Origin: Alphaproteobacteria bacterium
GTDB lineage: Bacteria > Pseudomonadota > Alphaproteobacteria > Rhodobacterales > Rhodobacteraceae
Length of the DNA stretch: 64,000 nucleotides
Assembly (NCBI GenBank): GCA_030429495.1
Contig: JAUIFH010000001.1
Coordinates: 496,001-560,000, forward strand
Direction: 5' to 3'
The translations under genes were made by a program, and so were the position numbers. Numbering within the stretch: position 1 is the first letter of the stretch; each line of letters begins with the position of its first letter. Positions 3,374-44,464 of this stretch are shown here, one piece after another. The notes beneath the pieces were generated by a model that was given only the letters and a program-made list of their open reading frames with translations, was not told the origin of the DNA and ran no database searches.

Positions 3374-4633
3374 TTGGCCGAATCCACCGATCTCGTCGTC
3401 ATCGGCGCGGGGGTCATCGGCCTGTCGGTCGCCAACGCCGCCCTGGCGCGCGGGTTGTCGGTGCGCGTGGTCGACCGCACCGGCCCCGCCGCCGGCGCTT
3501 CTGCGGGGAATGCGGGTGGCTTCGCCTTCGCCGAAATACAGCCCCTCGCCTCGCCGGGCACGCTCATGGTCTCACCCAAGTGGCTTCTCGACCCGCTCGG
3601 CCCGCTATCCGTGCCACCCCGCTATGCGCTTCAGATCTTCCCGTGGATGCTGCGCTTTGCCAGGGCGAGCCTTCCCGGTCGGGTCGCGGCCTCGACCGCC
3701 GCACAGGCGGCGATGATGGCGCATGCGCGCGCGACGCTTGAGCCCTTCATGGCGCTGACCGGTACGGCGGACATGCTGCGGAAGACCGGGCAGATGCAGG
3801 TCTTCGAAAGCACCCGGTCCTACGAGGCCGCCCTTCGCGATTGTGATGAGGCCGGGCGCTACGGCTACGGCTTCCGCCCGCTGGTCGGCCCCGATGCCAT
3901 CGCCGAGGTGCAACCCGGCCTCTCGCCCCGCTTCACCCATGCCATCGCAACCGAAGACTGGTGGGCCATCGCCGATCCGAAGCTTTACACGGTGGCGCTG
4001 GCCGAAGCGCTCACTGGCAAGGGCGGGCAGATCGACATCGACGAAGCGCGTGCGCTGTCACAGGCCGCCGATGGCGTCAGGGTTCATCTCGCCGACGGCT
4101 CGACGCTCACCGCGCGCCACGCCGTTGTTGCCGCCGGCGCGCATTCCCGCCGGCTTGCCGAAAGCCTCGGCGACTACATCCCGCTCGAGACCGAGCGGGG
4201 CTACAACACCACCCTGCCGCCGGGTGCCTTCGACCTTCGCCGCCACATTACTTTCGCCGAACACGGTTTCGTCGCCTCACCGCTCTCGACCGGCATCCGC
4301 GTCGGCGGGGCGGTCGAACTCGGCGGCCTCGACCTGCCGCCGAACTACGCGCGGTCAAAGGCGATGCTGACGAAGGCCGCAGGCTACATGCCCGGGCTGA
4401 AGACCGAAGGCGGCACCGAATGGATGGGCTTCCGCCCCTCGCTGCCTGACACGCTTCCGGCCATCGGCCGCGCCACCCGCGCGCCGAACGTCATCTATGC
4501 CTTCGGCCACGGCCATCTTGGCCTCACGCAGTCGGCCGGAACCGCCGATCTTGTCACCGCCCTCCTGACCGGTGCCACCCCCGCCATCGACCTCACCCCC
4601 TTCGCGCCCAACCGTTTCAAGGGCCTTCTATGA
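3374..4633 (+). CDS. FAD-dependent D-amino acid dehydrogenase-like enzyme, probable D-hydroxyproline dehydrogenase
   Basis: A 419-aa DAAO/DadA-type flavoprotein. The FAD dinucleotide motif is VVIGAGVIGLSVANAAL near the N terminus, followed by GASAGNAGGFAF, the SxxNaG-type segment typical of DadA-like dehydrogenases. The C-terminal FGHGHLGLTQSAGTADLV is the second FAD-contacting strand-turn. It probably oxidises cis-4-hydroxy-D-proline to pyrroline-4-hydroxy-2-carboxylate and passes electrons to the respiratory chain. TTG 3374 is taken as start because CAGGGGG lies about 6 bases upstream and the nearby ATG at 3352 runs straight into a stop. The stop overlaps the next start by 4 bases (ATGA), indicating translational coupling with the epimerase. 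Confidence 0.85.
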   Translation: MAESTDLVVIGAGVIGLSVANAALARGLSVRVVDRTGPAAGASAGNAGGFAFAEIQPLASPGTLMVSPKWLLDPLGPLSVPPRYALQIFPWMLRFARASLPGRVAASTAAQAAMMAHARATLEPFMALTGTADMLRKTGQMQVFESTRSYEAALRDCDEAGRYGYGFRPLVGPDAIAEVQPGLSPRFTHAIATEDWWAIADPKLYTVALAEALTGKGGQIDIDEARALSQAADGVRVHLADGSTLTARHAVVAAGAHSRRLAESLGDYIPLETERGYNTTLPPGAFDLRRHITFAEHGFVASPLSTGIRVGGAVELGGLDLPPNYARSKAMLTKAAGYMPGLKTEGGTEWMGFRPSLPDTLPAIGRATRAPNVIYAFGHGHLGLTQSAGTADLVTALLTGATPAIDLTPFAPNRFKGLL

Positions 4634-5631
4634 CCAGCCACACCTTCCTCTGCATCGACGGCCATACCTGCGGCAATCCGGTACGCCTTGTTACCGGCGG
4701 CGCGCCGCAGCTTCAGGGCAAGACCATGCTCGAACGCCGCGCGCATTTCCTTGCCGAATACGACTGGATCCGCACCGGCCTCATGTTTGAACCCCGCGGC
4801 CACGACCAGATGTCGGGCTCCATCCTCTACCCGCCGACCCGCGAGGATTGCGACGTGGGCGTCCTCTTCATCGAGACCTCGGGTTGCCTGCCGATGTGCG
4901 GCCACGGCACCATCGGCACGGTGACGACCGCCATCGAGAACGGCCTCGTCGCCCCGAAGACCCCCGGCACCCTGCGGCTCGATACCCCCGCCGGCCTCGT
5001 CATTGCCGAATACCGGCAGGAGGGGCGCTTTGTCGAAGAGGTCCGCTTGACCAACGTGCCCGCCTTCCTGCATTCCGAAGGCCTGACCGCCGAGGTCGAG
5101 GGCCTTGGCGAGATCACCGTCGATGTAGCCTACGGCGGCAACTTCTATGCCATCGTCGAGCCGCAAGAGAACTTCCGCGACATCGAAGACCACCGCGCGC
5201 TCGACCTCGTGGGCTGGAGCCCGAAGCTGCGGGTGGCGCTCAACGAAAAATACACTTTCACCCATCCCGAAAAGCCCGAGATCACTGGGCTGTCCCACAT
5301 CCTGTGGACCGGTGCGCCGAAACATCCCGAAGCCACCGCCCGCAACGCGGTCTTCTACGGCGACAAGGCCATCGACCGGTCGCCCTGCGGCACCGGCACC
5401 TCGGCCCGCATGGCGCATTGGGCAGGGAAAGGGCGGCTGAAGGAGGGCGAGGATTTCGTCCACGAAAGCATCATCGGCTCTCTCTTTAGGGGAAGGATCG
5501 AGGGGCGGGCGAAGGTCGGCGACCGTGATGCGATCATCCCCTCCATCGCGGGATGGGCGCGGGTCACCGGCTACAACACGATTTTCATCGACGACCGCGA
5601 CCCCTTCGCCCATGGTTTCGTCGTAACGTGA
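4630..5631 (+). CDS. 4-hydroxyproline 2-epimerase (proline racemase family, Cys/Cys)
   Basis: A 333-aa proline racemase-family enzyme with both catalytic thiols: C90 in [10 protein letters not shown] and C253 in [11 protein letters not shown]. The Cys/Cys pair is the mark of racemases and epimerases, in contrast to the dehydratases of the same fold. In this operon the substrate is most likely trans-4-hydroxy-L-proline, giving cis-4-hydroxy-D-proline for the adjacent FAD dehydrogenase. The length matches the family. Start ATG 4630 overlaps the upstream stop. Proline racemase activity itself cannot be excluded from sequence. Confidence 0.88.
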
Positions 5632-5644
5632 CACGAGGCAGCCC

Positions 5645-7321
5645 ATGGCCCGACGCATCACCGACGGTACAGCCACGGGGCCCATACTCGTGCTCACCGA
5701 GGGCTTGAGCTTCTGGGGCGGCGTCGATCCCGCCACGGGCCGCCTGATCGACGCGCATCACCCGGATTGCGGAGCCGATCTGGCGGGTAGCATCGTCATG
5801 ATGCCCACCAGCCGGGGGTCGTGTTCCGGCAGCGGGGTCCTCCTTGAACTGGCGCTCAACGGCCGCGCCCCCGCCGCGCTGATCTTCCGCGAGGCCGAGG
5901 ATGTGCTGACCGTCGGCGCGCTGATTGCGGGCATGCTCTTCGACCGCCCCATACCAGCCCTGCGGCTCGGGCCCGAGGACTACACCGCCCTCGCCGCAAA
6001 GCCCACGGCGCACGTCACCGAAGACAGGCTGGAGGCCGGTGGCCTCTCCCTGCCGCTCACGCCCCTTGCGACCGACCGGATGACGCTCACCGACACCGAC
6101 CGCGCGATGCTGGCGGGGCAGGAGGGCCGGGCGGTTCAGATCGCGATGCAGATCCTGACCACCGTGGCCGCCGCACAAGGCGCGACCGCGCTCACCGACG
6201 TCACCCGGGCCCATATCGACGGCTGCATTTATGCCAGCCCCGCCAACCTGACCTTCGCCCGCAAGATGGCCGACCTGGGGGCGAAAGTGCGCATCCCGAC
6301 AACGATGAACGCCATCTCGGTCGATCACACCCATTGGCGGCAGCAGGGGGTGGATGAGGCTTTCGGCAGCCCGGCGGCGGCCTTGGCCGATGCCTACACC
6401 GAGATGGGCGCGGCCCCGACCTTCACCTGCGCGCCCTACCTGCTCGATGATGCGCCGACGACCGGCGAACATATCGGCTGGTCCGAATCCAACGCCGTGA
6501 TCTATGCCAATACCGTCCTCGGCGCGCGGACGGTGAAGCACCCCGATTTCCTCGACCTCTGCATCGCGCTGACGGGCCGCGCGCCCATGTCCGGCGTCTA
6601 TCTCGATGCCAACCGCGCCCCCCGTCGGCTCATCCACGTCACCCTGCCTGAAGGGCATGACGATGCGCTTTGGCCGATGCTCGGCTATCTGGCGGGCAGG
6701 CTCGCTCCCGATCGTATCCCGCTCCTCACCGGGCTTGAGAGGACCATGCCCTCCGAGGACGACCTCAAGGCGCTTTGCGCGGCCTTCGGCACCTCGTCGG
6801 CCGCGCCGATGCTGCACATCGCGGGCATCACGCCCGAAGGCCACCTTGCTCCCGGTGCCGACGCCGACGCAGCCCAAATCACCCGGACCGATCTGGCGCG
6901 GGCATGGGCCAAGTTCAATTCCGGCCCCGCCGAGACCGACCTCGTCGCCCTCGGTTCCCCGCATTTCTCCGCCGCCGAGTGCCGAAAACTGGCGGGTCAT
7001 CTCGACGGTCAGACCGTCGCGACCGGTACCACCGCAATTGTTACGGCAGGCCGCGACACGATCAAGGCCATCACCGCCGACGGCATAGCGGATCGGCTGC
7101 AAAGGGCAGGCGTCCGCATCATCCCTGATCTCTGCTGGTGCTCGATCTCCGAACCCGTCTTCCCGCCCGCCACCCGGACGCTGATGACCAATTCCGGCAA
7201 ATATGCCCATTACGCCCCCGCTTTGTCCGGCCGTGCCGTGCGTTTTGGCAGCCTCGCCGATTGCGCCCGCGCAGCGGTCACCGGTAGGGCCCCCATTACA
7301 TTGCCTGACTGGCTCACCTGA
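5645..7321 (+). CDS. Aconitase X (AcnX), fused small and large domains; probable cis-3-hydroxy-L-proline dehydratase
   Basis: A 558-aa protein joining an N-terminal small AcnX domain (residues 1 to about 135, including [18 protein letters not shown]) to the large DUF521/aconitase X catalytic domain (about 145-558). Conserved segments in the large part include [48 protein letters not shown] and, near the end, [13 protein letters not shown] and [10 protein letters not shown]. Cysteines in the SCSGS, DGC and CWC motifs probably hold an iron or iron-sulfur centre as in other AcnX proteins. Fused AcnX enzymes linked to hydroxyproline genes have been characterised as cis-3-hydroxy-L-proline dehydratases giving pyrroline-2-carboxylate. 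ATG 5645 sits 8 bases after a GAGG, 13 bases beyond the epimerase stop. Confidence 0.88.
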
Positions 7322-7330
7322 GGACGCCCC

Positions 7331-8362
7331 ATGCGCACGACCAAGACCATCCATGTCATCTCTGCCCATGCTGAGGGCGAGGTGGGCGACGTCATCGTCG
7401 GCGGCGTGACGCCCCCGCCGGGCGCGACACTCTGGGACCAGCGGCGCTTCATCGCCGAGGATGGCAAGCTTCGCGCCTTCATGCTGAACGAGCCGCGCGG
7501 CGGGGTCTTTCGCCATGTGAATCTTCTGGTGCCGCCGAAGCACCCCGACGCACAGATCGGCTTCATCATCATGGAGCCCGAGGACACGCCGCCCATGTCG
7601 GGCTCGAACTCCATCTGTGTGGCGACCGTGCTACTCGACGCAGGCATCCTGCCGATGGTTGAGCCCCTGACCGAACTCACGCTCGAAGCCCCCGGCGGCC
7701 TCGTCCGGGTCCGCGCCGAGTGCCGGGACGGCAAGGCAGAGCGAATTACGGTCACGAACCTGCCCTCCTTCGCCGACCGGCTGGATGCCAGCCTTGAAGT
7801 AGAGGGGATCGGTACGCTCAAAGTCGACACCGCCTTTGGCGGCGACAGTTTCGTGATCGTCGATGCTGGGGCATTGGGTCTGAAGATCGCCCCAGACGAG
7901 GCGCGCGACATGGCCCGGCTCGGCACACGGATTACCAATGCCGCCAATGCCCAGCTTGGTTTTGCCCACCCTGAACGATCGGATTGGGATCACATCTCCT
8001 TCTGCCTCTTCGCCGGGCCGCTTGAGAAGAATGGCGACGGCTTCACCGCCCGCTCTGCCGTCGCGATCCAGCCCGGCAAGGTTGACCGTTCGCCCACCGG
8101 CACCGGCGTCTCGGCGCGCATGGCGGTGCTGCATGCGAAGGGCGTTATGGCAGAGGGCCAGACGCTCACCGCCCGTTCGATCATTGACAGCACCTTCACC
8201 GGCCGCATCGCCGGGCGGACAGAGGTCGTGGGCCGTCCCGCGATCATCCCGGAGATTTCCGGGCGTGGCTGGATCACCGGCATCCACCAACATATGCTGG
8301 ACCCCTCCGATCCCTGGCCGGGTGGCTATCGTCTGTCCGATACCTGGGGCGCGGGTGGCTGA
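7331..8362 (+). CDS. Proline racemase-family protein with Ser/Thr catalytic pair, probable trans-3-hydroxy-L-proline dehydratase
   Basis: A 343-aa paralogue of the epimerase at 4630 in which both catalytic cysteines are replaced: [13 protein letters not shown] has S90 where the epimerase has MCGHG, and [11 protein letters not shown] has T256 where the epimerase has SPCGTG. Thr at the second position is the known signature of trans-3-hydroxy-L-proline dehydratases, which abstract the alpha proton and eliminate the 3-hydroxyl. Ser at the first position, with the following His also changed to Ser, departs from the usual Cys. With AcnX upstream it would let the cell dehydrate both 3-hydroxyproline diastereomers to pyrroline-2-carboxylate. 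It is the last gene of the operon, 9 bases after AcnX, and is convergent with cysK across 91 bases. Confidence 0.8.
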
Positions 8363-9691: not shown

Positions 9692-10774
9692 TCAGCCGTG
9701 CCGGCTCTTGCTGCCGGTATTGTAGTAGTTACCGGTCCTGGTCGCGAGATAAGGGGTCAACGAGATTTCCTCCTGCTTCAGGAAACCCTTCTGCGGCAAC
9801 TTGCCCTCACGGACCATCTCGATGACGGCGACGACCGAGGCCGAGGTTGTCCAGGCAATCGCCGTCCGCTTCTTGCCGCTGATCTCCAGCGGATAATAGG
9901 CGCGCACGAACTCCTTGCGCTTTAACTGACCTTCCACCCAGCCCTCGGCGGCGACATGGACGTAGACCACATCCTCGTCCACGGGGGGCTTCGCATGGGT
10001 CAGTATCTTTCCCGCCGCCTCGCGGTTCTCGCGCATCAGCAACTCGTGGAAGAAGAAGTTCATCAACTCCACATGGCCGGGATAGCGCATGGTCTTGTAA
10101 TCGAGGTTCTCGATCTTGTCGGCGTAGGTCTCGCACATCGTGCCGAGCCCGCCGGACGTGGTGAAGGCTTCCAGCTTCACGCCGTCGATATAGATCGTCT
10201 CCAGCCATTCCATCGCCGAGACGGTCTTGTGCACACCCTCCTCGATCACCTCGCAGTCGTTGAGGTATTCGTTGACGACACCTTCGGGCGACCAGTTGAA
10301 GGCGTAGCCCAGAAGCCCGGTCGGGTTCTGCGGCAGCGCACCGACGCGGAGGCGGATCGAGCGGACCTTGTCGAACATGTCGGCAAGATGCGCGCCGACG
10401 ATGCCGACGAAACCGGGGGCGAGGCCGCATTGCGGGGCCATGATGCCCTTCGCGGTTTTCGCCAGTTCGCGGATATGCTGGGTCGTCGGCACATCCTCTG
10501 TCAGGTCGAAATAGTGGAGGCCGAGGCCATGGGCGACGGTCGAGACGCCAATATTGAGGTGATAGGGCAGGCAGGACAGAACCGCCTCCTGATCCTTCAG
10601 GATCGCGGCCAGCGCGTCCTTGTCGGTCAGGTCGGCCGCCTTCGTGGGGAAGGGGCATCCCGAGACCTCACGCGCATCGACGCCGGTGACGGCAAAGCCT
10701 GCCTCGGCGAGAAGTTCGGCGGCCAGATGGCCGACCTTTCCGAGGCCGAGAACGGCAACCTTGTTGAACGACAT
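9692..10774 (-). CDS. Saccharopine dehydrogenase-like oxidoreductase (saccharopine or lysine 6-dehydrogenase)
   Basis: A 360-aa protein with an N-terminal Rossmann fold (VAVLGLGKVGHLAAELLAEAG, residues 6-26) and the saccharopine dehydrogenase-family body, including LPYHLNIGV, GLAPGFVGIVGAHLA, FTTSGGLGTM and AIAWTTSASVVAVI. It would produce 2-aminoadipate 6-semialdehyde (in equilibrium with piperideine-6-carboxylate) from saccharopine or directly from lysine; sequence alone does not separate the two. The product is the substrate of the ALDH at 12126 in the nearby operon, supporting a role in lysine degradation. Start ATG 10774 follows AAAAGGAAG. A strong terminator lies downstream. No lysine-ketoglutarate reductase is in the window. 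Confidence 0.78.
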   Translation of the reverse strand: MSFNKVAVLGLGKVGHLAAELLAEAGFAVTGVDAREVSGCPFPTKAADLTDKDALAAILKDQEAVLSCLPYHLNIGVSTVAHGLGLHYFDLTEDVPTTQHIRELAKTAKGIMAPQCGLAPGFVGIVGAHLADMFDKVRSIRLRVGALPQNPTGLLGYAFNWSPEGVVNEYLNDCEVIEEGVHKTVSAMEWLETIYIDGVKLEAFTTSGGLGTMCETYADKIENLDYKTMRYPGHVELMNFFFHELLMRENREAAGKILTHAKPPVDEDVVYVHVAAEGWVEGQLKRKEFVRAYYPLEISGKKRTAIAWTTSASVVAVIEMVREGKLPQKGFLKQEEISLTPYLATRTGNYYNTGSKSRHG

Positions 10775-11171
10775 GACGCGCTTCCTTTTCTTGTCTGAAC
10801 CCTCCGGCCTGCCGCCGGTTCGCCGCCACAATCACCCGCGCGGCTGGCGATTTCCTCGGGTATTCCGGCGGTTTTGGCAGGGGAATGCAGAAAAGTGCCG
10901 GGGTTGTCGGTCAGAGTGTCGGCAGAGGCATCAAACACATGCGCATGAGAAGTAGCGACGGTTCGGGTCGGACCGAGAATGGGTTGATTGCCGCTACTAG
11001 CAGACTTCACGTCCGAAAAACACACGGGTCTTCGAAAGTCAGGCTGCTAGTGCAAGAGAACGAACTAGGGCGCCCTTACAGGCTTGGAGCCGCTCGCCCA
11101 GTATTTTCTTGACTGAATCTGGTCGATAATGTGGACTATCATATCGCGATGCGACAGACGGAGAAGATGAA
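10775..11171. other. 397-base intergenic region at the left edge of the low-GC patch
   Basis: No gene is supported here. GC content falls from the left to the right end. CTAGCAG (10997-11003) and CTGCTAG (11044-11050) form an inverted repeat with further partial pairing inside. TTGACT at 11109-11114 could be a -35 box for the lyase gene, but no well-spaced -10 is clear. GGAGAAG at 11160-11166 is the ribosome site of the gene at 11172. Confidence 0.5.
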
Positions 11172-12125: not shown

Positions 12126-13625
12126 TCAAAAGTCGAACTTCACGCCCTGCGCCAGCGGCAACTGGGCCGAATAGTTGATCGTGTTGGTCTGCCGCCGCAT
12201 GTAGCCCTTCCAGGCGTCCGAGCCCGACTCGCGCCCGCCGCCCGTTTCCTTCTCGCCGCCGAAGGCCCCGCCGATCTCGGCGCCCGAGGGGCCGATATTG
12301 ACGTTGGCGATGCCGCAGTCGGAGCCTGCGGCGGAGAGGAACGCCTCGGCCTCGCGCATGTTCAGCGTGAAGATGCAGGACGACAGCCCCTGCGGTACGT
12401 CGTTCTGGAGGGCGATGGCTTCCTCCAGCGTCTCATAGCCCAGAACGTAGAGGATCGGCGCGAAGGTCTCGGTCCGCACCGTGTCGGTCTGCGCGGGCAT
12501 CTCGGCAATCGCCGGTTCGACATAGGCCCCACCCTGCGGCACGCCCGATGTCACGGTCTTGCCGCCATGAACGGTGCCGCCCTCGGACTTGGCCTTTTCC
12601 AGCGCCGCCTGCATCCGGTCGCGCGAGGCGTGGTCGATCAGCGGGCCGACAAGCGTCGTCCCCTTGCGCGGATCGCCGATGGGGAGCGAGCCATAGGCCT
12701 TGGTCAGTTTCGCCACCAGATCGTCCTTGATCGAGTTATGCGCGATGAGGCGGCGGAGCGTCGTGCAGCGCTGGCCCGCCGTGCCGACGGCGGAAAAGAC
12801 GATGGCGCGGACGGCCATGTCGAGATCGGCCGAGGGCGCGACGATCATCGCGTTGTTGCCGCCGAGTTCGAGGATCGGCCGACCCCAGCGCCCCGCGACC
12901 TTCGGCCCGACGATGCCGCCCATGCGGGTCGAGCCGGTGGCCGAGACGATGGGCACGTCCTGCGAGTTCACCAGCGCTTCGCCGATGGCCGGGCCGCCGA
13001 TGACAAGCTGCACCAGCCCCTCGGGCGCATCGCCGAAGCGTTTCAGAGCGCGTTCCATGATCTTCATCGACGCCATGGCGGTCAGCGGCGTCTTCTCCGA
13101 CGGCTTCCAGATCACCGGATCGCCGCAAACGAGCGCAAGGGCCGTATTCCACGACCAGACCGCGACGGGGAAGTTGAAGGCGGTGATGACGGCGCAGGGG
13201 CCGAGCGGGTGCCAGGTTTCCATCATCCGGTGGCCGGGGCGTTCCGACGCGATTGTCAGCCCGTAGATTTGGCGCGAGAGACCGACCGCGAAGTCGCAGA
13301 TGTCGATCATCTCCTGCACTTCGCCGAGGCCTTCGGAGGTGATCTTGCCTGCCTCAAGCGTCACGACGGCGCCAAGCGCGTCCTTGGCCACGCGCAGTTC
13401 CTCGCCCAGAAGCCGGACCAGTTCGCCCCGGCGCGGCGCGGGAACGGTGCGCCAGGCTTTGAACGCCTCCTGCGACTTGGCGATGATCTTCGCCATGTCG
13501 GCAGGGTCGGTTTCGCGCACCCGCGCGACCTCCGACCCGTCGATGGGCGAATGCACGGCGAGCGTGCCGCCCGCCACTTCCGCCTTGGTCAGGCCCGCGG
13601 CCTTGAGGATGTCGTCGTGGCTCAT
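12126..13625 (-). CDS. amaB: 2-aminoadipate 6-semialdehyde / piperideine-6-carboxylate dehydrogenase (ALDH7 type)
   Basis: A 499-aa NAD-dependent aldehyde dehydrogenase close to the antiquitin (ALDH7) group. The catalytic nucleophile is C287 in GTAGQRCTTLRRL, the general base is E253 in ILELGGNNAMI, NAFNFP-type binding is seen in VITAFNFPVAVWSWN (146-160), and WKPSEKTP (173-180) binds the cofactor. It oxidises aminoadipate semialdehyde to 2-aminoadipate. It is the last gene of the minus-strand operon 19370-12126, one base after the acyltransferase stop. The operon context, with glutaryl-CoA dehydrogenase and an aminotransferase, makes the lysine pathway assignment strong. Confidence 0.88.
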   Translation of the reverse strand: MSHDDILKAAGLTKAEVAGGTLAVHSPIDGSEVARVRETDPADMAKIIAKSQEAFKAWRTVPAPRRGELVRLLGEELRVAKDALGAVVTLEAGKITSEGLGEVQEMIDICDFAVGLSRQIYGLTIASERPGHRMMETWHPLGPCAVITAFNFPVAVWSWNTALALVCGDPVIWKPSEKTPLTAMASMKIMERALKRFGDAPEGLVQLVIGGPAIGEALVNSQDVPIVSATGSTRMGGIVGPKVAGRWGRPILELGGNNAMIVAPSADLDMAVRAIVFSAVGTAGQRCTTLRRLIAHNSIKDDLVAKLTKAYGSLPIGDPRKGTTLVGPLIDHASRDRMQAALEKAKSEGGTVHGGKTVTSGVPQGGAYVEPAIAEMPAQTDTVRTETFAPILYVLGYETLEEAIALQNDVPQGLSSCIFTLNMREAEAFLSAAGSDCGIANVNIGPSGAEIGGAFGGEKETGGGRESGSDAWKGYMRRQTNTINYSAQLPLAQGVKFDF

Positions 13626-13626
13626 G

Positions 13627-14655
13627 TCAGTCTCCTTTGGTGACGGTCCCGCGCTGGTCGTCCATGCCCATGGAGACCAGCACCGGCCCTGCCTGTTGCC
13701 GTGTCTGGAAATCTTGCTTCGACCCCATGCTGCGCCAATCCGACAGGATCAGCGACTGGGCGACCGCGCCCCCGAGCGTGGTGCCCGGGCCGGTAACGAT
13801 GAAAAGATCGGGCGCGAATTCGCGCGCGGCGATCCGGATCGCATGGGTGAAATCGTAGGTCTCGGTCACCTGATGGCCGAGGGTGTAGTCCCAAAGGGCC
13901 TGCGTATCGGTCGCGCCCGGCCACCAGATCGCGCCGCGCCCGTCGATCATCGGCAGCTTCGGCTGGCCGAAGAGGGACGGCGAAAGGCGGGCACGGCCAC
14001 GCTCGGCCACGGGGGCCTGGAGCGACGAGTGGAAGGCCGCGTGGTTGGCAAGCCGCATCGGAAAGCTGCCCTGAACCGGCGGCACGGCGGCTTCGAATGC
14101 CGCCAGCCCCGCCTCGTTCCCCGCCAGCACCAGCATGCCGCCAAGGTCGATGGAGAGTGTCAGGACATGGCCCGCGTCGGCGATGTCTACGATCAGCGCC
14201 ATCAGCTCGGCCTTGCGCGCCGGGTCGGGCCGCCAGTCCTCTCCCACGAAGGGATAGATCAGTTGGCCGCCGATCAGCGCCTCTTGCATCAGCGTGCCCA
14301 TGGTGTTCACCACCTCGAACCCCGCCTCGGCGGTCAGCGCGCCGCCGCAGGCGAGGGCCGAGTACCAGCCCATCGAGTTGCCGGTGACCGCGACGACCTC
14401 GACCCCGTCGATGGCGCGGAAATCGCCGAGCGTGGCCGAGTAGATCAGCGCCGAGGCATTGTCGCCGCGGGTGTGCTTCGCGACCGAATAGGATGCCGCC
14501 CCGTCCAGCGCGGACAGCGTTTCCTGACCCAGCCCCTCGCGGGTCCGGTCGAACGCACCCAAGAGCGCGCGGTCGGCGAAATGTCGGTTGAGGTAGCCGA
14601 GTTCGGTTTTCGTGTAGGTGCCACGGCCCGGGCAGATGACGACGGCAGTCTTCAT
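13627..14655 (-). CDS. FabD-fold acyltransferase of the lysine degradation operon, substrate unknown
   Basis: A 342-aa protein with the malonyl-CoA:ACP transacylase (AT) fold. The nucleophile elbow is VTGNSMGWYSA with S94, and the catalytic histidine is H209 in NHAAFHSSLQAP, so the Ser-His dyad is intact. In FabD the conserved LRGKFMQEA carries the arginine that holds the malonyl carboxylate; here the aligned segment is NTMGTLMQEA, with Met at about position 119, so a malonyl or other short carboxyacyl substrate is not expected to bind in the usual way. It lies between the fused E1 dehydrogenase (4-base overlap) and amaB (1 base), so it is co-translated with lysine catabolic enzymes and not with fatty acid genes. 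A role in passing an acyl group between the E1 product and CoA is only a hypothesis. Confidence 0.75.
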   Translation of the reverse strand: MKTAVVICPGRGTYTKTELGYLNRHFADRALLGAFDRTREGLGQETLSALDGAASYSVAKHTRGDNASALIYSATLGDFRAIDGVEVVAVTGNSMGWYSALACGGALTAEAGFEVVNTMGTLMQEALIGGQLIYPFVGEDWRPDPARKAELMALIVDIADAGHVLTLSIDLGGMLVLAGNEAGLAAFEAAVPPVQGSFPMRLANHAAFHSSLQAPVAERGRARLSPSLFGQPKLPMIDGRGAIWWPGATDTQALWDYTLGHQVTETYDFTHAIRIAAREFAPDLFIVTGPGTTLGGAVAQSLILSDWRSMGSKQDFQTRQQAGPVLVSMGMDDQRGTVTKGD

Positions 14656-16841
14656 TTCGTGCCCCCGATCAGCGCCATCGCGGCATCGAAGATACGGCCA
14701 GCCGAGGGCATCGTCGCGGCATAGGCGGGGCCGGTGGCGATGAAGCTGTCCTCGGCGGTCAGGCGCGCAGTCGGAACCTTGCCGCGCTCGGCGAACAGCG
14801 CCATCAGCGCTTCGGCCACGCCGCCCGACCGGCGGGTTTCATCGACGATCAGGATGCGTTTCGATCCCTTCACTGCCTCCACCAACGCGTCGGAGGGCAA
14901 GGGCGACAGCCAGCGCATGTCGATGACCCGCGCCTTCACGCCCTGTTCCGCCAGCCGCGCCTCGGCCTGCCGCGACAGATAATAGCCGTTGCCGAAGGTG
15001 ACGATGGCAAGGTCCGTGCCCGCGCCGTGCACACCCACCTCGCCCAGCCCGATCACCTCGGACCGGTCGGGGTAACGGCACATCCAGCCGCCGTCCTTTT
15101 CCCCATGAAGGTCCCGCATCGGGTAAAGCGCGATGGGTTCGAGGAAGACGACGACCCGCTGCTCCTCCCGCGCCAGCCGCACGCATTCGCGCATCATCCG
15201 CGCCGCGTCGGCCCCGTTCGAGGGGCAGGCGAGGATCACGCCCGGAATGTCGCGCAGGACAGCCACCGAGTTGTCGTTGTGGAAATGGCCCCCGAAGCCC
15301 TTCTGGTAGCCAAGGCCCGCGATGCGCAGCACCATGGGGTTGGTGTACTGCCCGTTCGAGAAGAACGAAAGCGTCGCCGCCTCGCCCCTGATCTGGTCCT
15401 CGGCATTGTGCAGGTAGGCGAGGAACTGGATCTCGGGCATCGGCACGAACCCGTTCTGCCCCATGCCGATGGCGAGGCCGAGGATGGATTGTTCATCCAA
15501 GAGCGTGTCGATCATCCGGTCCGGTCCGAAGCGGGTGATGAGCTTCTGGGTGACGCCATAGACGCCGCCCTTGCGGCCCACATCCTCGCCCATCATCACG
15601 ATTTCGGGATGCTCCAGCATCAGGTCGGTCAGCGCCCAATTGATGAGGCGCGACATGATCTGCGGCTCATCCATCGCCTTCATGTCGGCCCCGAAGGCGG
15701 CGGCGCGCGCCTCGTCGCTTGGCCCGTTCGTCGGCTTGCACATCCGCTTCGGCGGGATCAGCGAGGCCATGACGTCCCCCGCCGCCTTCAGCCGAGGGCG
15801 GGTAATCGCCTCGCCGGCGATGCGGGCGACACGGGCGTTCGTGTCCTGATAGATCGCAAGCGCTTCGGTGGGCGAAAGCACCCCGGCCTCATTCATCAGG
15901 CGCACGGAATGCAGAAGCGGGTCGTTCGCCTCCTCCGCCTCGACCTCCTCGCGGGAAAGGTAGGTCGTCGGCACGTCGGCTCCGGCATGACCGTAAAGCC
16001 GGATCGTGCCGATATGCAGGAAGGCGGGCTTCTTTCGGCTGCGCACGTAATGCGCCGCCTCCTGTGCCACGCGGAACGCCTCGTAGATATCAAGCCCGTT
16101 GCAGTGGAAATACTTCAGCCCCGGGCGGTTCTGGAACGTGGCAGCGATCCAGCCCTTCGGGGTCTTCGTCGAAATGCCGATGCCGTTGTCCTCGCACACG
16201 AAGAGCAGAGGGAGCGGGATCGACTGGTAGGAGGTCCACTGGGCGGTGTTGAACGCGCCCTGCGCGGTCGAATGGTTGGCCGAGGCGTCGCCGAACGAGC
16301 AGTAGACGATGGCGTCGTCCGGCAGTGCCTTGTGCTCGGGCGCGCGGCGCCGGGCCGCGCCGACGGCATAGGCCGCGCCCACCGCCTTCGGCAGATGCGA
16401 GGCGATGGTCGAGGTCTGGGGCGGGATGTTCAGGGCCTTCGATCCCAGCACCTTGTGCCGCCCGCCCGAGATCGGGTCCTCGGACGAGGCCGCGAAGGAC
16501 AAGAGCATGTCCCAGGCGATGGACTGACCGGGCACCTGCCCGGCCCGCGCAATCTGGAAGGCGGCGTCGCGGTAGTGAAGGAATGCCATGTCGGTCGGGC
16601 GCAGCGCGGCGGCCACCGCCGCCAGCCCCTCATGCCCCGAGGAACCGATCGTGTAGAACCCCTGCCCCGCCTTCTGCATCGCCCGGCTCTGCCGGTCGAG
16701 CGCGCGGGAAAGGCATCCGGCGCGATAGACGGCGACTGCCTCTGGCCCCGACAAGGGCCCCGAAGGCCCGCGCCCGACGGGCAGGTCGCCCGCAGCCACC
16801 CGCCTCAGGAAGCTCTCATGAACGATGTCCGCGCGATCCAT
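14652..16841 (-). CDS. Alpha-beta fused thiamine-diphosphate 2-oxoacid dehydrogenase E1 component
   Basis: A 729-aa protein: residues about 30-370 are the E1-alpha domain (HYRD at 89-92; ThDP/Mg loop GDASANHSTAQGAFN at 184-198), and about 390-729 are the transketolase-like E1-beta domain (MMGEDVGRKGGVYGVTQ, LLDEQSILGLAIGMG, C-terminal ILIVDETRRSGG). This is the branched-chain/pyruvate E1 type, not the single-chain OGDH type. With aminoadipate aminotransferase and glutaryl-CoA dehydrogenase in the same operon the natural substrate is probably 2-oxoadipate. No E2 acyltransferase or E3 is encoded anywhere in the window. It overlaps the acyltransferase by 4 bases. A hairpin at 16877-16934 separates it from glutaryl-CoA dehydrogenase. 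Confidence 0.82.
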   Translation of the reverse strand: MDRADIVHESFLRRVAAGDLPVGRGPSGPLSGPEAVAVYRAGCLSRALDRQSRAMQKAGQGFYTIGSSGHEGLAAVAAALRPTDMAFLHYRDAAFQIARAGQVPGQSIAWDMLLSFAASSEDPISGGRHKVLGSKALNIPPQTSTIASHLPKAVGAAYAVGAARRRAPEHKALPDDAIVYCSFGDASANHSTAQGAFNTAQWTSYQSIPLPLLFVCEDNGIGISTKTPKGWIAATFQNRPGLKYFHCNGLDIYEAFRVAQEAAHYVRSRKKPAFLHIGTIRLYGHAGADVPTTYLSREEVEAEEANDPLLHSVRLMNEAGVLSPTEALAIYQDTNARVARIAGEAITRPRLKAAGDVMASLIPPKRMCKPTNGPSDEARAAAFGADMKAMDEPQIMSRLINWALTDLMLEHPEIVMMGEDVGRKGGVYGVTQKLITRFGPDRMIDTLLDEQSILGLAIGMGQNGFVPMPEIQFLAYLHNAEDQIRGEAATLSFFSNGQYTNPMVLRIAGLGYQKGFGGHFHNDNSVAVLRDIPGVILACPSNGADAARMMRECVRLAREEQRVVVFLEPIALYPMRDLHGEKDGGWMCRYPDRSEVIGLGEVGVHGAGTDLAIVTFGNGYYLSRQAEARLAEQGVKARVIDMRWLSPLPSDALVEAVKGSKRILIVDETRRSGGVAEALMALFAERGKVPTARLTAEDSFIATGPAYAATMPSAGRIFDAAMALIGGTK

Positions 16842-16948: not shown

Positions 16949-18157
<1,209 letters not shown>

Positions 18158-18164
18158 TGGGTCC

Positions 18165-19370
18165 TCACGTGAGAGATGCGCAGAAACGCGCGATGCGGGT
18201 TGCGGCCTCTTTCAGAGACGCGCGCGAATAGGCGTAGGAAAGCCGCACATATCCCGGCGTTCCGAAGGCGCGGCCGGGGACGAGCGCGACGCCCTCCTGC
18301 TCCAGCAATGCCTCGCAGAAGTCGGCGTCGGTTTCTATGCGACGGCCTGACGTCGTCGTCTTTCCGAACGCTGCCGAACAGCCCGGGAACAGGTAGAATG
18401 CCCCGTCTGCGGAAGGGCAGGACAGAACGCCTGTCGCGTTCAGCGCCTCGACCACAATGTTGCGCCGTTCGCGGAAATCGTCATTCCGCTCGGCCAGAAG
18501 CTGCTGATCGCCACGGAGCGCCGCGGCCGCCGCCGCCTGGGAAACCGAGGATGGTCCCGAGGTGATCTGGCTCTGGATGGCGATCATGGCGGAGATGAGC
18601 CGCTTCGGCCCGATGCCCCAGCCGATCCGCCAGCCGGTCATGGCGTAGCTCTTCGAAACGCCATTTACGATCAATGTGCGATCGGCAAGGTCCGGTGCGA
18701 CCGACCGGAAGGAGTGGAACGGCACATAGCAGATATGCTGGTAGATTTCGTCGACCATGATGCCGACATGGGGCGCGTCCCGCAGGACTTCCGCCAGCGC
18801 CTCAAGGTCTTCGCGGCCATAGACCGCGCCCGACGGGTTCGATGGCGTATTGAGCAGAAGCCAGCGGGTTCTGTCGGTGATCGCGGCGCGAAGCTGGTCG
18901 GGCGTCACGCGGAAGCCGGCCTCTGCCGTCGTCGGCAGCGGGACCGGCTTGCCGCCGCAGACTGTGACGATATCGGGATAGCTGGTCCAGTAGGGTGCCG
19001 CGATCAGCACCTCGTCACCGGGATCGAGCGTCGCGGCGAAGGCGTTGTACAGAATCTGCTTTGCGCCGGTCGAGACAACGGTCTCCCCGCGCTCGGGCCG
19101 GTAGCCGTTGTCGCGCTGGCAGGCTTCGGCGATCGCGTCACGCAGATCGAGCGTGCCGGCGGTGAGCGTATAGCTTGTCTGCCCTGCCAACGCGGCCTGA
19201 TGCGCTGCCTCCACGACATGCGGCGGCGTGGGAAAGTCCGGCTCGCCCGTGCCCAGCGTGATGATGTCGCGGCCCGCGCGCTTCAGCGCGTCGGCCAGCT
19301 CCGAAATCCTCAGGATCTCCGAAAGCTCGACGGCCTCGATGCGGGCAGAGCGGCGGAACGGGTCAGACAT
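18165..19370 (-). CDS. Class I PLP aminotransferase, probable 2-aminoadipate aminotransferase
   Basis: A 401-aa fold-type I aminotransferase of the aspartate aminotransferase superfamily. Features in order: [49 protein letters not shown], the PLP lysine in [16 protein letters not shown], and the substrate-binding arginine in VRLSYAYS near the C terminus. It is the first gene of the operon leading to glutaryl-CoA dehydrogenase, so 2-aminoadipate to 2-oxoadipate is the most economical role; aspartate or aromatic transamination cannot be excluded. ATG 19370 is preferred because GAGG lies six bases upstream; a GTG at 19397 would overlap the control region shared with the divergent LysR gene. Confidence 0.8.
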
Positions 19371-19419
19371 GAAAGGCCTCATGCGGGTTTTATGCACTAT
19401 GGTCCATTGAAGCCTGCCT

Positions 19420-19433: not shown

Positions 19434-19464
19434 TGGCTGTAGTATATGCATGAAAGGCATACAA

Positions 19465-20382
19465 ATGGCGACACCGCGCCGCCTTCTGCCGTCGATTTCG
19501 CTGTTGTCGGCCTTTGAGTCGGTCATCCGCACCGGATCAACCCTCGCCGCCGCGCGCGACCTCGACCTGACGCAGGGTGCGGTGAGCCGGCTGATCCAGA
19601 ACCTCGAATCGCAGCTTGGCGTAACCCTGTTCCTGCGTGAGCGCCGGCGGCTGGTCCCGACCGATCACGCGCTTGCCTATGCGCGCGATGTCGTCAAGGC
19701 GCTCGACCTCATCTCGCGCGGGTCGATGCGGGTCCGGTCGAACACCGGCGGCGGCACGCTGTCGCTGGCGATCCTGCCGACCTTCGGCACGCGCTGGCTC
19801 GCCCCGCGCCTGTCCCGGTTCCTCGCCGACCACCCCGGCATCACGATCAATCTCGGCACGCGCCTGAAGCCCTTCGACTTCGAGGAGGAGGGTTTCGACG
19901 CGGCTATCCATTTCGGGACGGAGAACTGGGCCGGCACCGGGTCGGTCAAGCTGTTCGATGAGTGGCTGGTGGCCTGCTGCGCCCCGAAGTTCATCGCCGA
20001 ACACCCGGTCGAGGAGCCTGTCGACCTGATCGGACTGCCACTTTTGCAGCTGGAAACCCGCCCGAATGCCTGGGCCGCGTGGTTCGCCCATCACGGTGTA
20101 GAGCGCGGGGTGGGGCAGGGGATGCTCTTCGACCAGTTCGCGCCGATGATCCAGGCGGTGATCCACGGGCTCGGCGTGGCCCTGTTACCCGAATTCCTCG
20201 CCAAGCAGGAGCTTGCCGACGGACGGTTGGTTCAGGCCTTTGGCGAGCCTGTCCGGGGTGACGGCAGCTATTACCTCGTCTGGCCCGCTGTCGGGGCCTG
20301 GTATCCGCCGTTGCAGGCGTTTCGCGACTGGCTGGTCGCGGAAGCGGCAGACCCGGATGGCGAGGCGATGCTGCCCCGTTGA
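19465..20382 (+). CDS. LysR-family regulator (GcvA-like), probable regulator of the lysine/aminoadipate operon
   Basis: About 305 aa from ATG 19465. The N-terminal winged helix is visible as LLSAFESVIRTGSTLAAARDLDLTQGAVSRLIQNLESQLGVTLF, followed by the linker helix and a type 2 periplasmic-binding effector domain (LSLAILPTFGTRWLAPRL, FDAAIHFG, VIHGLGVALLPEF). The GcvA-like feature is the SLAILPTFGTRWL strand-loop. ATG 19465 has AAAGG upstream; ATG 19450 in the same frame has none. It is divergent from the five-gene operon and so probably controls it with a lysine-pathway metabolite as effector (inference). Its stop touches a possible TTG start of the next regulator. Confidence 0.85.
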   Translation: MATPRRLLPSISLLSAFESVIRTGSTLAAARDLDLTQGAVSRLIQNLESQLGVTLFLRERRRLVPTDHALAYARDVVKALDLISRGSMRVRSNTGGGTLSLAILPTFGTRWLAPRLSRFLADHPGITINLGTRLKPFDFEEEGFDAAIHFGTENWAGTGSVKLFDEWLVACCAPKFIAEHPVEEPVDLIGLPLLQLETRPNAWAAWFAHHGVERGVGQGMLFDQFAPMIQAVIHGLGVALLPEFLAKQELADGRLVQAFGEPVRGDGSYYLVWPAVGAWYPPLQAFRDWLVAEAADPDGEAMLPR

Positions 20383-21061: not shown

Positions 21062-21089
21062 TTGACATTTCCATGATGGCGGATATTGT
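21062..21089 (+). promoter_or_regulatory. Probable sigma-70-type promoter of the kbl-tdh operon
   Basis: TTGACA (21062-21067), a 16-base spacer and TATTGT (21084-21089) precede kbl. The GGAGGAG ribosome site is at 21101-21107 and ATG at 21116, giving a short leader. Confidence 0.6.
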
Positions 21090-21115
21090 TCCACCATACC
21101 GGAGGAGATTCTGTG

Positions 21116-22306
21116 ATGTCGGACAAGACTGCGTTTCTGGACCATCTCGGGGACACGCTTCGCGGGATCGAGGCCGACGGGCTTTACAAGCGCGAACGGC
21201 TGATCACCTCGGCGCAGGGGGCGCATGTGAAGGTGGCGGGGCGCGACGTCCTGAACCTTTGCGCAAACAACTATCTCGGGCTGGCCGACCACCCCGCCCT
21301 CATCGCGGCGGCGAAGGGGGCGATGGACGGGCACGGCTACGGCATGGCCTCTGTCCGTTTCATCTGCGGCACGCAGGACCTGCACCGAGAGCTTGAGGCG
21401 CGGATCGCGCGGTTCCTCGGCAAGGAGGATTCCATACTCTTCGCCGCCTGTTTCGACGCGAATGGCGGGCTGTTCGAGCCACTTCTGGACCCCGAGGATG
21501 CCATCATCTCGGACGCGCTGAACCATGCCTCGATTATCGACGGGATCAGGCTCTGCAAGGCGAAGCGCTACCGCTACGCCAATTCCGACATGGATGATCT
21601 TGAGGCGCAGTTGCAGGCCGCCCGCACGGATGGGGCGCGGTTCATCCTGATCGCGACCGATGGCGTCTTTTCGATGGACGGCTATCTGGCGAAACTGCCG
21701 GAAGTCGTGGCCTTGGCCGAAAAATACGGCGCCCTGACCATGGTCGATGACTGCCATGCGACCGGCTTCATGGGGCCTGAGGGGCGCGGCACCCCGGCCC
21801 ATGCCGGGGTTTCGGTCGATATCATGACCGGCACCCTCGGCAAGGCTCTGGGCGGGGCGCTGGGGGGCTACATCGCCGGACCACAGTCTGTCATCGACCT
21901 GCTACGGCAACGCGCGCGGCCCTACCTCTTTTCCAATGCGCTGCCGCCGGCGGTGGTCGCCGCCGGGATTGCCGCGATTGACCTCGTGGAGGCGGCGGAC
22001 GACCTGCGTGCGGCCCTTTTCGAGAATGCCCGCTACTGGCGGGCGGGGCTGGAGGATGCGGGCTTCACGCTCCTGCCCGGGGAACATCCGATCATTCCGG
22101 TGATGCTGGGCGACGCGAAACTCGCGCAGGCGATGGCGTCGGGGCTTTATGACCGGGGCGTCTATGTCTCGGGCTTCTTCTTCCCGGTCGTGCCGAAGGG
22201 GCAGGCGCGCATCCGGACGCAGATGAACGCGAAACTGACGCGGGACGATCTGGATTTCGCGCTCGACGCGTTCCGGGCGGCGGGCAAGGCTGTGGGCGCG
22301 ATCTGA
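21116..22306 (+). CDS. kbl: 2-amino-3-ketobutyrate CoA ligase (glycine C-acetyltransferase)
   Basis: A 396-aa alpha-oxoamine synthase-family PLP enzyme. Signature regions: [82 protein letters not shown] and the PLP lysine in [14 protein letters not shown]. It cleaves 2-amino-3-ketobutyrate with CoA to glycine and acetyl-CoA, the second step of threonine breakdown. ATG 21116 is 8 bases after GGAGGAG. The last base of its TGA is the first base of the methyltransferase ATG, and tdh follows, so the three genes are translationally coupled. Confidence 0.93.
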
Positions 22307-22920
22307 TGGCAAGCGACCTGAGCGATCGCGCGATTGCCGCCTATGAGACGCAGGCGGGGGTGCTTCGGTCGCGTTACGACGCCGTCACGACCGACGACGT
22401 GCTTTCCGGCGTTGTCGACATCCTGCCGAAACCGCCGGTCCACGTGCTCGACGTCGGCGCGGGCAGCGGGCGCGATACCGCCTGGTTCGCCACGCGCGGG
22501 GACAGGGTCACGGCGGCCGAACCCGTTTCGGCGTTCCGTGCGGCCATTGAGGCGCGAGTGCCGGGCGCGGCGGTTGTGGACGCGCGCCTGCCCGACCTTG
22601 ACGGGATCGCGGGGCCGTTCGGCCTGATCCTCGTCAATGCGGTCTGGCAACATCTGACGGCCGGAGCACGCGTCGCCGCCGTCGCGCGCATCGCGGCGCT
22701 TCTGGCGCCCGGGGGGCAGTTGATCCTGTCATTGCGCCACGGGCCGGTGCCAGAGGGGCAGCCTGTTCTCGCGCTTGACCCAGACGAAGAAATTGCGCGC
22801 GCCGTTGCCGCAGGGCTTGAACTTCGGCGGCGTGTCGCCGCGCCGTCGCATCAGCCGCAGAACATCGCCGCCGGCGTCACCTGGACCTGGCTTGTCTTCG
22901 AGAAGGATATGCAAAAATGA
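22306..22920 (+). CDS. Class I SAM-dependent methyltransferase wedged between kbl and tdh
   Basis: A 204-aa protein with a Rossmann-type SAM site: [20 protein letters not shown] is motif I, AAEPVSAF carries the acidic residue for the ribose, and [15 protein letters not shown] with [16 protein letters not shown] are motifs IV and VI. The substrate is not evident; the small size and WQHL motif fit a small-molecule methyltransferase of the Methyltransf_11/25 group. The start codon shares a base with the kbl stop and the stop overlaps the tdh start by 4 bases, so it is co-expressed with threonine degradation. I know of no established methylation step in that pathway. Confidence 0.8.
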
Positions 22921-23954
22921 CCAACATGATGCAGGCGCTGGCGAAGGCAAAGGCTGAGGTCGGGCTTTGGATGGAGCATCGTCCTGTGCCCGAGATCGGG
23001 CCGGACGACGTGCTGATCCGCATCAAGAAGACCGGCATCTGCGGCACCGACATCCATATCTGGAACTGGGACGAGTGGGCGGCGCGGACTGTGCCGGTGG
23101 GTCTCGTCACGGGTCATGAATTCGCGGGCGAGATCGTCGAGATCGGCCGCAATGTCGAAGGGCTGGCCATTGGCCAGCGCTGCTCGGGCGAGGGGCATCT
23201 GATCGGCAAGCAGTCGCGGCAGAGCCGGGCGGGAAAGTTCCACCTCGACCCGGCCACGCGCGGGATCGGGGTCAACGAACAGGGGGCCTTTGCCGAGTAC
23301 CTGAAGCTGCCCGCGTTCAACGTCGTGCCGCTGCCCGATGAGATCGACGACGACATCGGCGCGATCCTCGATCCGCTCGGAAATGCCGTCCACACGGCCC
23401 TGTCCTTCGACCTCGTGGGCGAGGACGTGCTGATCACCGGCGCAGGCCCCATCGGCATCATGGCAGCCGCCGTCGCCCGCCATGTCGGCGCGCGGCATGT
23501 GGTGATCACCGATGTAAATCAGGACCGGCTGGACCTTGCCGCGCAGGTGACGGACGTGGTGCCCGTCAACGTGGCCAGGCAGGACCTGAAGGACGTCGAG
23601 GGCGCGTTGAAGATGAAGGAAGGCTTCGACGTGGGTATGGAGATGTCGGGCAATCAGGCGGCACTCGACCAGATGGTCGAGAACATGGTGATGGGCGGCC
23701 GCATCGCGATGCTCGGCATCCCGCCGGGCAAGTCGCCGGTGGATTGGAGCCGCATCGTCTTCAAGGCGATCACCATCAAGGGTGTCTATGGTCGCGAGAT
23801 TTTCGAGACCTGGTACAAGATGATCGCCATGCTGGAGAACGGGCTGGATATCCGCCGGGTGATCACCCATCGCTTCAAGGTGGGTGATTTCCGGGAGGGG
23901 TTCGAGATCATGCGGTCCGGCAAGAGCGGCAAGGTTGTGCTGGACTGGACCTGA
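22917..23954 (+). CDS. tdh: L-threonine 3-dehydrogenase
   Basis: A 345-aa zinc medium-chain dehydrogenase oxidising L-threonine to 2-amino-3-ketobutyrate with NAD. The catalytic zinc ligands are in [17 protein letters not shown] and [13 protein letters not shown]; the coenzyme site is [19 protein letters not shown]. The characteristic Tdh segments [21 protein letters not shown] and [21 protein letters not shown] are present. The structural-zinc region is reduced: RCSGEGH has the single Cys typical of Tdh variants with a shortened lobe. It follows kbl and the methyltransferase with overlapping codons, and its product is the Kbl substrate. Confidence 0.93.
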
Positions 23955-44091: not shown

Positions 44092-44418
44092 CTAGCCTGC
44101 GTTCATCCGCTCGATATAGCGGCGCAGTTCCTCGGCTTCGTGTCGGGCGTCGCGCAGTCCGTCCATCGCGGCGCGCAGTTCCGCCTGCGTCTGTTGCAAC
44201 TGGCTCGCGAGTCCCGCTTCACGCGCCTGAAGCATATCGACGGCCTCGTCGCGCATTTCCTCGGCATCGTGCAGGTCGCGGGCCATCTTCTCCAACTCAC
44301 CCATCTCTGCCTGCGTCACGCGGGTGAGCCGATGAACGAGCCAGCAGGCGAACCAGCCGAGCATGAAGGCCACGAAGAGGATGATCGCGGTGGCGACGAT
44401 GAATTCGGTTCTGTTCAT
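44092..44418 (-). CDS. Small membrane-anchored coiled-coil protein
   Basis: A 108-aa protein. Residues 6-26 are a membrane helix (FIVATAIILFVAFMLGWFACW). Residues about 35-105 are an uninterrupted charged helix rich in Glu, Arg, Gln and Leu heptads (GELEKMARDLHDAEEMRDEA, LQQTQAELRAAMDGLRDARH). The long cytoplasmic or periplasmic coiled coil suggests a scaffolding or envelope-organising role; I recognise no family. ATG 44418 has AAAGGG upstream. It lies 46 bases after the OmpA-type gene stop on the same strand, so it is probably co-transcribed with it. Confidence 0.75.
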   Translation of the reverse strand: MNRTEFIVATAIILFVAFMLGWFACWLVHRLTRVTQAEMGELEKMARDLHDAEEMRDEAVDMLQAREAGLASQLQQTQAELRAAMDGLRDARHEAEELRRYIERMNAG

Positions 44419-44464
44419 GATTGCCCTTTGCCGCTCTGATTGCCGCCGGTCAAGTCCTGCTGCC

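Follow-up and report, generated by a model that had tools for sequence, protein, structure and literature searches.

A FabD-fold acyltransferase (AT) encoded in a lysine operon of a Rhodobacteraceae genome forms a well-supported partnership with the fused E1 enzyme encoded directly upstream of it, and the two proteins are very probably docked on one another. Both genes lie on the minus strand of the window, which is the whole 64,000 nt stretch of DNA analysed here (assembly GCA_030429495.1, contig JAUIFH010000001.1, positions 496,001 to 560,000). In particular, AT (342 aa) occupies 13627..14655, the alpha-beta fused, thiamin diphosphate (ThDP)-dependent E1 (729 aa) occupies 14652..16841, and the end of the E1 gene overlaps the start of the AT gene by 4 nt (14652..14655, minus strand), an arrangement that would couple their translation. 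The overlap agrees with a preliminary description of this DNA, which gave no strand. E1 and AT are treated as one module because of their constant adjacency, their mostly 4 nt overlap, and the E1 residues that track the presence of AT. The chemistry is what we infer from this partnership: with somewhat less than even confidence, AT would be a subunit dedicated to the fused E1, acting as its catalytic partner when bacteria oxidise 2-oxoadipate and carrying glutaryl from a lipoyl group to coenzyme A (CoA).

The linkage was followed across an evenly drawn family sample of 248 genomes, a class sample of 385 genomes and a phylum sample of 398 genomes; the phylum and family samples share five E1 carriers, four with AT and one without it (G190). 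In the family sample, AT is present in 47 genomes and E1 in 76, and E1 adjoins AT in 46 of the 47; in the remaining genome (G568), the contig edge leaves only a fragment of E1 immediately before AT. The phylum sample contains AT in 16 genomes and E1 in 29, with E1 adjoining AT in 16 of 16, and the class sample contains AT in 5 genomes. Further, a scan of genome contigs with an AT alignment returned at least 523 stretches with AT relatives, of which 80 were retained; by their titles, these presumably belong to Rhodobacterales, Sphingomonadales, Rhizobiales and other orders. Among the matches listed, the nearest named loci are those of Defluviimonas and its kin, whose AT is 87–92% identical. In 83 of 84 compared loci, E1 immediately precedes AT and is read from the same strand; in the other locus (L073) just 29 bases precede AT. 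Overall, 146 locus entries, with some genomes counted repeatedly, contain both genes; in every one of them AT follows E1 on the same strand, and in 127 the spacing is -4, a low count in which the Shewanella overlap was missed. AT without E1 was never seen wherever the flank was visible.

The gene order extends to a Shewanella aestuarii plasmid that carries gcdH (72%), E1 (56%) and AT (49%), in this order. On this plasmid (L167), a nar nitrate reductase cluster and an ISNCY-family transposase flank the gcdH-E1-AT module, which may be mobile for this reason. Across the E1 carriers, supported branches force 12 and 13 changes in AT presence on two E1 trees, from which AT reads as an addition to E1 that was gained or lost many times.

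Several E1 positions follow the presence or absence of AT. Co-variation was tested with genome pairs of unlike AT status that have no branch in common on the E1 tree, a FastTree phylogeny built on the same alignment as the columns tested. Across the family sample together with Shewanella, Legionella and Nonomuraea, the strongest of 332 variable E1 columns are W110, R340, I341 and R337. Nine leading positions were read out of sample in 24 further genomes, 12 with AT and 12 without it; position 421, high in both column rankings, lies outside these nine. Of these, five held up, two gave a weak signal and two did not hold. In particular, position 107 is Ser or Thr in 12 genomes with AT versus 0 without (Ser alone, 3 versus 0); position 110 is Trp or Tyr in 12 versus 2 (Trp alone, 9 versus 1); position 340 is Arg in 8 versus 0; position 341 is Val or Ile in 9 versus 1; and position 36 is Val in 7 versus 1, with 3 gaps among the AT-less genomes. 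When all 102 rows are taken together, positions 340, 110, 341, 36 and 107 stand out among 391 columns (differences of 6.6–8.6, the next being 5.0, with a standard deviation of 1.8).

The residues at these positions are consistent with a covered surface. Position 110 has an aromatic residue in 58 of 58 rows with AT and in 9 of 43 rows without it. Where AT is missing, position 110 is often Arg or Met, position 36 often Arg, Lys or Leu, position 341 often Ala, Leu or Glu, and position 107 is Asp in the phylum set; such charged or small residues are expected if the surface is no longer covered. All five positions map to, or lie beside, three helices predicted in the alpha half (32–57, 108–116 and 324–345), taken from a modest E1 model (mean pLDDT of 72.2, pTM of 0.55) that was used for helix limits alone. 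Together, the five AT-linked positions point to an E1–AT interface, as read from aligned sequences. The tie between AT and E1, by gene order and co-varying residues, runs through Alphaproteobacteria, Shewanella and other classes of the phylum sample.

Rates of E1 divergence lend support only. The ratio of E1 to GcdH distances at the same locus has a median of 1.65 for pairs with AT, 2.16 for mixed pairs and 2.31 for AT-less pairs, across 28 genomes and non-independent pairs. Likewise, the E1 root-to-tip distance is 0.58 without AT (30 rows) and 0.48 with AT (46 rows; p = 0.0016, uncorrected for kinship); E1 end-branch lengths depend on sampling. The idea that AT belongs with the lysine route through AmaB instead of with E1 was considered and set aside, its evidence being no more than suggestive: AmaB occurs in 29 of 46 genomes with AT (one being a fragment under the cut-off) versus 6 of 29 without it (Fisher p = 0.0004), and independent pairs change in the same direction 6.0 times versus 1.2 times in the opposite direction (median p = 0.125). 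Position 110 of E1 is Trp or Tyr in all 58 rows with AT that have a residue there, regardless of AmaB.

The predicted structure of AT is confident (pLDDT of 95.8, pTM of 0.93) and superimposes on 4rr5 (VIA Z of 33.6, rmsd of 2.1, 286 residues aligned) and on E. coli FabD, 1mla (Z of 32.2, rmsd of 2.5, 292 residues aligned), indicating that the modelled chain has the FabD fold across its whole length. AT has no Pfam match at an E-value of 0.001, and it falls under the NCBIfam cut-offs of FabD (TIGR00128; 46.1 versus 260.9 bits) and MdcH (TIGR03131; 42.6 versus 297.9 bits). The catalytic Ser and His of FabD align with AT S94 and H209, the dyad named in the preliminary description, and Q262 aligns with the Gln of the FabD R-Q-L-Y stretch. 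The substitution named in that description is also found in the alignment: Met119 takes the place of the malonyl-binding Arg in the FabD stretch M-R-G-K-F-M-Q-E-A, which we take to be R117 of E. coli FabD. Further, R11 occupies the Gln site of the FabD G-Q-G motif. Across 143 distinct AT sequences, reaching down to 47% identity with the window's AT, R11, N93, S94, W97, H209 and Q262 are invariant, and Met occupies position 119 in 141 of them and Thr in the other 2, with Arg in none. By alignment, the active site appears intact and re-tooled, as a trait of the whole AT family, and R11 would be the most likely residue to have taken over the carboxylate contact from the malonyl Arg.

These residues bear on three other accounts of AT. 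It is hardly credible that AT is an extra malonyl-CoA:acyl carrier protein (ACP) transacylase that entered the operon by chance; the FabD fold and the annotation of AT as ACP S-malonyltransferase in three plasmid records would agree with it, but the malonyl-site Arg is missing in 143 of 143 sequences, the FabD-profile score is far under its cut-off, the window's genome has another FabD-like gene (C17), and AT is always beside E1 wherever this is visible. A transfer of glutaryl, or of another acyl group derived from E1, out of CoA or lipoyl and onto ACP for biosynthesis, for example as a pimelate or lipid primer, is very unlikely. FabD and MdcH, both the nearest named families of AT, speak for such a transfer, as does the use of lysine-derived glutaryl-CoA by an alphaproteobacterial BioZ (PMC7645780). 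However, that paper favours glutaryl-CoA and states that evidence for glutaryl-ACP inside cells is lacking, and the window's genome contains only one β-ketoacyl-ACP synthase III (PF08541), in a plsX-fabH-ihfA-like cluster, with no BioZ found. The supply of biotin through BioZ by AT is likewise disfavoured in the window's genome by the position of this sole synthase.

Third, AT could be a structural or regulatory subunit of E1, acting in stability, gating or acyl feedback, with its catalytic turnover unimportant. The E1 positions that track AT presence would follow from such a subunit, whereas the strict conservation of all six active-site residues, S94 and H209 among them, in every AT sequence would not, leaving this account decidedly unlikely.

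The supply of E2 and E3 constrains what AT could do for E1. Profile searches find E1_dh, Transket_pyr and Transketolase_C together in the E1 chain, each above its cut-off, in agreement with the alpha-beta fused ThDP enzyme of the preliminary description, and the Pfam search of the chain has no PF00198 match; by its domains, the enzyme is of the fused pyruvate dehydrogenase (PDH)/branched-chain 2-oxoacid dehydrogenase (BCKDH) type. The E1_dh matches in the window's genome are a PDH-like gene, a 2-oxoglutarate dehydrogenase (OGDH)-like gene, the lysine-operon E1 and one weak match, probably a transketolase. E2 or E3 genes adjoining E1-AT were found neither in the window, where the name 'orphan' first given to this E1 holds, nor in the compared relatives, which include three near cases. 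A PDH E2 gene lies about 5.4 kb upstream of the E1 of an AT-less locus (L144, in G537); an E2 gene lies about 2.2 kb past AT on the opposite strand in G512 (C44); and a weak Lpd-like match (31%) lies about 6 kb past AT in L052. The E2-like genes elsewhere in the window's genome are apparently those of PDH and of OGDH, the latter with two lipoyl domains, plus a fragment of a third E2, again of the OGDH type. This fragment (L003, G000:C20:1-1902) is an OGDH-type C-terminus beside lpd at a contig end, with 82% DNA identity to the other OGDH-type copy over 413 bases; a second OGDH-like E1 was not found in the window's assembly. At least one PF00198 gene is present in 70 of 70 genomes, made up of 65 family-sample E1 carriers plus five AT-bearing members of the genus.

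AT itself has no PF00198 catalytic domain and no PF00364 lipoyl domain, the genome's matches to both lying elsewhere, and because it has no lipoyl domain it cannot replace a whole E2. The preliminary description had proposed that E1 and AT form a module replacing the usual E2: the module is upheld by adjacency, overlap and co-varying residues, and the replacement of E2 is not, given the missing lipoyl domain and the many E1 genes without AT. Among the loci read, replacement of the whole E2 by AT is rejected, as some of them have E1 but neither AT nor an E2 where AT would stand. Downstream of E1 in the AT-less genomes, the loci listed contain no common substitute for AT. E1 often occurs without AT or an E2 in its place, and therefore must manage on shared lipoyl, E2 and E3 machinery; where AT is missing, a shared E2 core probably performs the glutaryl transfer, in the way that human E2o serves DHTKD1. 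Extra E2 genes that compensate for a missing AT were also considered and set aside, as genomes with and without AT do not differ.

The proposed mechanism would proceed as follows. E1 would decarboxylate 2-oxoadipate and reductively glutarylate a lipoyl domain, which would be borrowed from the E2 of OGDH or PDH because no E2 is encoded with E1. AT would dock on the alpha half of E1, around positions 36, 107/110 and 340/341; its Ser94 would accept the glutaryl group and hand it over to CoA, yielding glutaryl-CoA for the neighbouring GcdH, and Arg11 would contact the glutaryl carboxylate, the malonyl Arg being Met. The E1 chemistry, the lipoyl donor, the acylation of Ser94 and the CoA acceptor are all putative steps. 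Glutaryl transfer to CoA is the simplest role for AT because a Ser-His acyltransferase is held on E1, beside a gcdH gene whose product consumes glutaryl-CoA. A reason to add AT is offered by the E. coli OGDH complex, in which succinyl transfer in E2o is described as rate-limiting (PMC5986005).

Several observations weigh against this reading. AT is absent from 30 of the 76 E1 carriers of the family sample (in one of them, G425, the contig ends inside E1) and from 13 of the 29 of the phylum sample; one locus (L153) is arranged as gcdH-E1-amaB with AT alone missing, and Legionella adelaidensis has E1-gcdH without AT. AT is dispensable in evolution. AT also has no link with the number of E2 genes, as more than two PF00198 genes occur in 18 of 41 genomes with AT and 13 of 24 without it (p = 0.45). 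Among the E1 positions read out of sample, 371 (Thr, 3 versus 0) and 347 (Thr, 3 versus 1) are weak, and both 337 (Arg, 7/12 with AT versus 8/12 without) and 334 (Thr, 3 versus 3) failed and were dropped. The residue classes Ser/Thr, Trp/Tyr and Val/Ile were fixed after the residues had been seen, and 9 of the 12 AT-less genomes come from just two distant families. Within families f190 (3 with AT, 2 without) and f201 (1 and 1), position 110 separates only 1 of 3 AT-less rows; position 107 separates all of them. Finally, the co-variation is silent on the reaction that AT catalyses.

The dispensability of AT is accounted for if AT is an editing enzyme or thioesterase bound to E1, clearing wrong or slow acyl groups, such as glutaryl on the lipoyl arms of OGDH or PDH, while the shared E2 core makes glutaryl-CoA. 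Some trans-AT enzymes act as acyl hydrolases, and the structural matches of AT include FabD-fold trans-AT enzymes, for example the one of disorazole synthase; the kept Ser-His pair would be accounted for as well. However, hydrolysis of a glutaryl thioester would be wasteful beside gcdH, and editing alone does not require a bound E1 partner, which makes this explanation unlikely. What survives of the E2 idea is narrower, namely that AT may perform a transacylation or another thioester step on borrowed lipoyl arms. Returning to glutaryl transfer, a more tentative proposal is that a FabD-fold Ser-His enzyme was recruited as an E1-bound subunit that takes over the transacylation half-reaction of E2 on lipoyl domains borrowed from the central complexes, so that lysine flux would not load the OGDH core, and would serve as a bacterial 'E2a'.

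The operon surrounding E1 and AT is consistent with a 2-oxoadipate substrate. In the minus-strand order of transcription, it comprises a class I/II aminotransferase (18165..19397), identified by a profile match and a candidate 2-aminoadipate aminotransferase; gcdH, encoding glutaryl-CoA dehydrogenase (16949..18157); E1; AT; and amaB, encoding L-piperidine-6-carboxylate (aminoadipate semialdehyde) dehydrogenase (12126..13625; NF050084, 819 bits against a cut-off of 730). Past an opposite-strand gene, there follows a saccharopine-dehydrogenase-family protein (9692..10831, minus strand), probably a lysine 6-dehydrogenase, whose listed reading frame has an uncertain TTG start. The amaB gene begins one base after AT, and amaB, the aminotransferase and the glutaryl-CoA dehydrogenase matches (568–602 bits) agree with the lysine context first described. 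GcdH was assigned by matches to solved structures: 3eom (602 bits) and 1sir (568 bits), the latter presumably the human enzyme, are chains named glutaryl-CoA dehydrogenase, and the top match, 4w9u (701 bits), is a chain named acyl-CoA dehydrogenase. The best Protein Data Bank match of the saccharopine-dehydrogenase-family protein is 3abi (PH1688; 67.5 bits), which we take to be L-lysine dehydrogenase. With the established order of steps in this pathway, the window appears to hold the route from lysine through aminoadipate semialdehyde, 2-aminoadipate, 2-oxoadipate and glutaryl-CoA to crotonyl-CoA. E1 is the sole candidate seen in the window for the 2-oxoadipate step, and its gcdH, amaB and aminotransferase neighbours suggest that 2-oxoadipate is its substrate. 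The same genes, together with the lysine-dehydrogenase-like gene, are often near E1-AT in the compared loci. Ruegeria pomeroyi has two neighbouring genes, SPO0234 and SPO0235, whose annotated functions are lysine dehydrogenase and aminoadipic semialdehyde dehydrogenase (PMC4334477).

A divergent LysR-family gene (19450..20382, plus strand), possibly the regulator of the operon, holds the same position in many related loci. Between amaB and the lysine-dehydrogenase-like gene, whose distance varies among related loci, lies a gene for a polysaccharide-lyase-family protein (PF14099; 11172–11999, plus strand). On the other side, kbl (glycine C-acetyltransferase) and tdh (threonine dehydrogenase), both above their NCBIfam cut-offs, adjoin the lysine operon at 21086–23954 (plus strand), a position kept in near relatives. 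Further away, genes for hydroxyproline catabolism (4-hydroxyproline epimerase, cis-3-hydroxy-L-proline dehydratase and trans-3-hydroxy-L-proline dehydratase, each above its NCBIfam cut-off) lie at 4630–8362 (plus strand), accompanied at 3374–4633 by a D-amino-acid-dehydrogenase-like gene that is below its cut-off. The window also contains a 681-aa open reading frame at 44363–46408 (plus strand) with no NCBIfam match at an E-value of 0.001, overlapped on the other strand by a 658-aa frame. Outside the window, a lone E1 relative (48%) of the actinomycete Nonomuraea gerenzanensis (L170) has no gcdH or AT match within 8 kb on either side.

Among known systems, the actinobacterial OdhA/KGD protein, which holds E2o and E1o in one chain, resembles E1-AT in that an E1 is coupled to an acyltransferase without a lipoyl domain; in OdhA, the E2o domain is described as carrying out its acyl transfer with lipoyl groups that AceF provides in trans (PMC10415282). 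The transferase of OdhA has the chloramphenicol acetyltransferase (CAT) fold of E2 and is fused to E1, whereas AT is a FabD-fold Ser-His enzyme encoded by a separate gene. Unlike OdhA, the E1 described here is of the PDH/BCKDH type and has no E2-type CAT domain, and its use of lipoyl groups in trans, with which the lack of an adjoining E2 is consistent, would be a parallel to OdhA. Human DHTKD1 (E1a) catalyses the reaction that is proposed for the window's E1, and each is without an E2 and E3 of its own. DHTKD1 is reported to recruit the E2o and E3 shared with OGDH, and a review states that no gene for a cognate glutaryltransferase (E2a) has been identified for it (PMC8146983). DHTKD1 is an OGDH E1 homologue with no AT partner, in contrast to the fused PDH/BCKDH-type E1 of the window. 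The window's E1 has no adjoining E2 either. A full-text literature search, with most subscription papers outside its reach, found no account of a FabD-fold protein that is paired with an E1.

To our knowledge, a FabD fold has no known role in E2-type transacylation. FabD and AT have the whole-chain fold and the catalytic Ser and His in common; AT differs in its Met for the malonyl Arg, its Arg for the Gln of G-Q-G, its roughly 20% identity and its E1 neighbour. MdcH of malonate decarboxylase, a FabD relative that AT scores far below the cut-off for, is dedicated to one catabolic enzyme, as is proposed for AT; it differs in that it serves an ACP-like subunit. Finally, the dihydrolipoyl acyltransferases of E2 (PF00198) catalyse the same reaction that is proposed for AT, which has another fold and no lipoyl domain; if the proposal is true, E2 catalysis would have found a second structural solution in AT.

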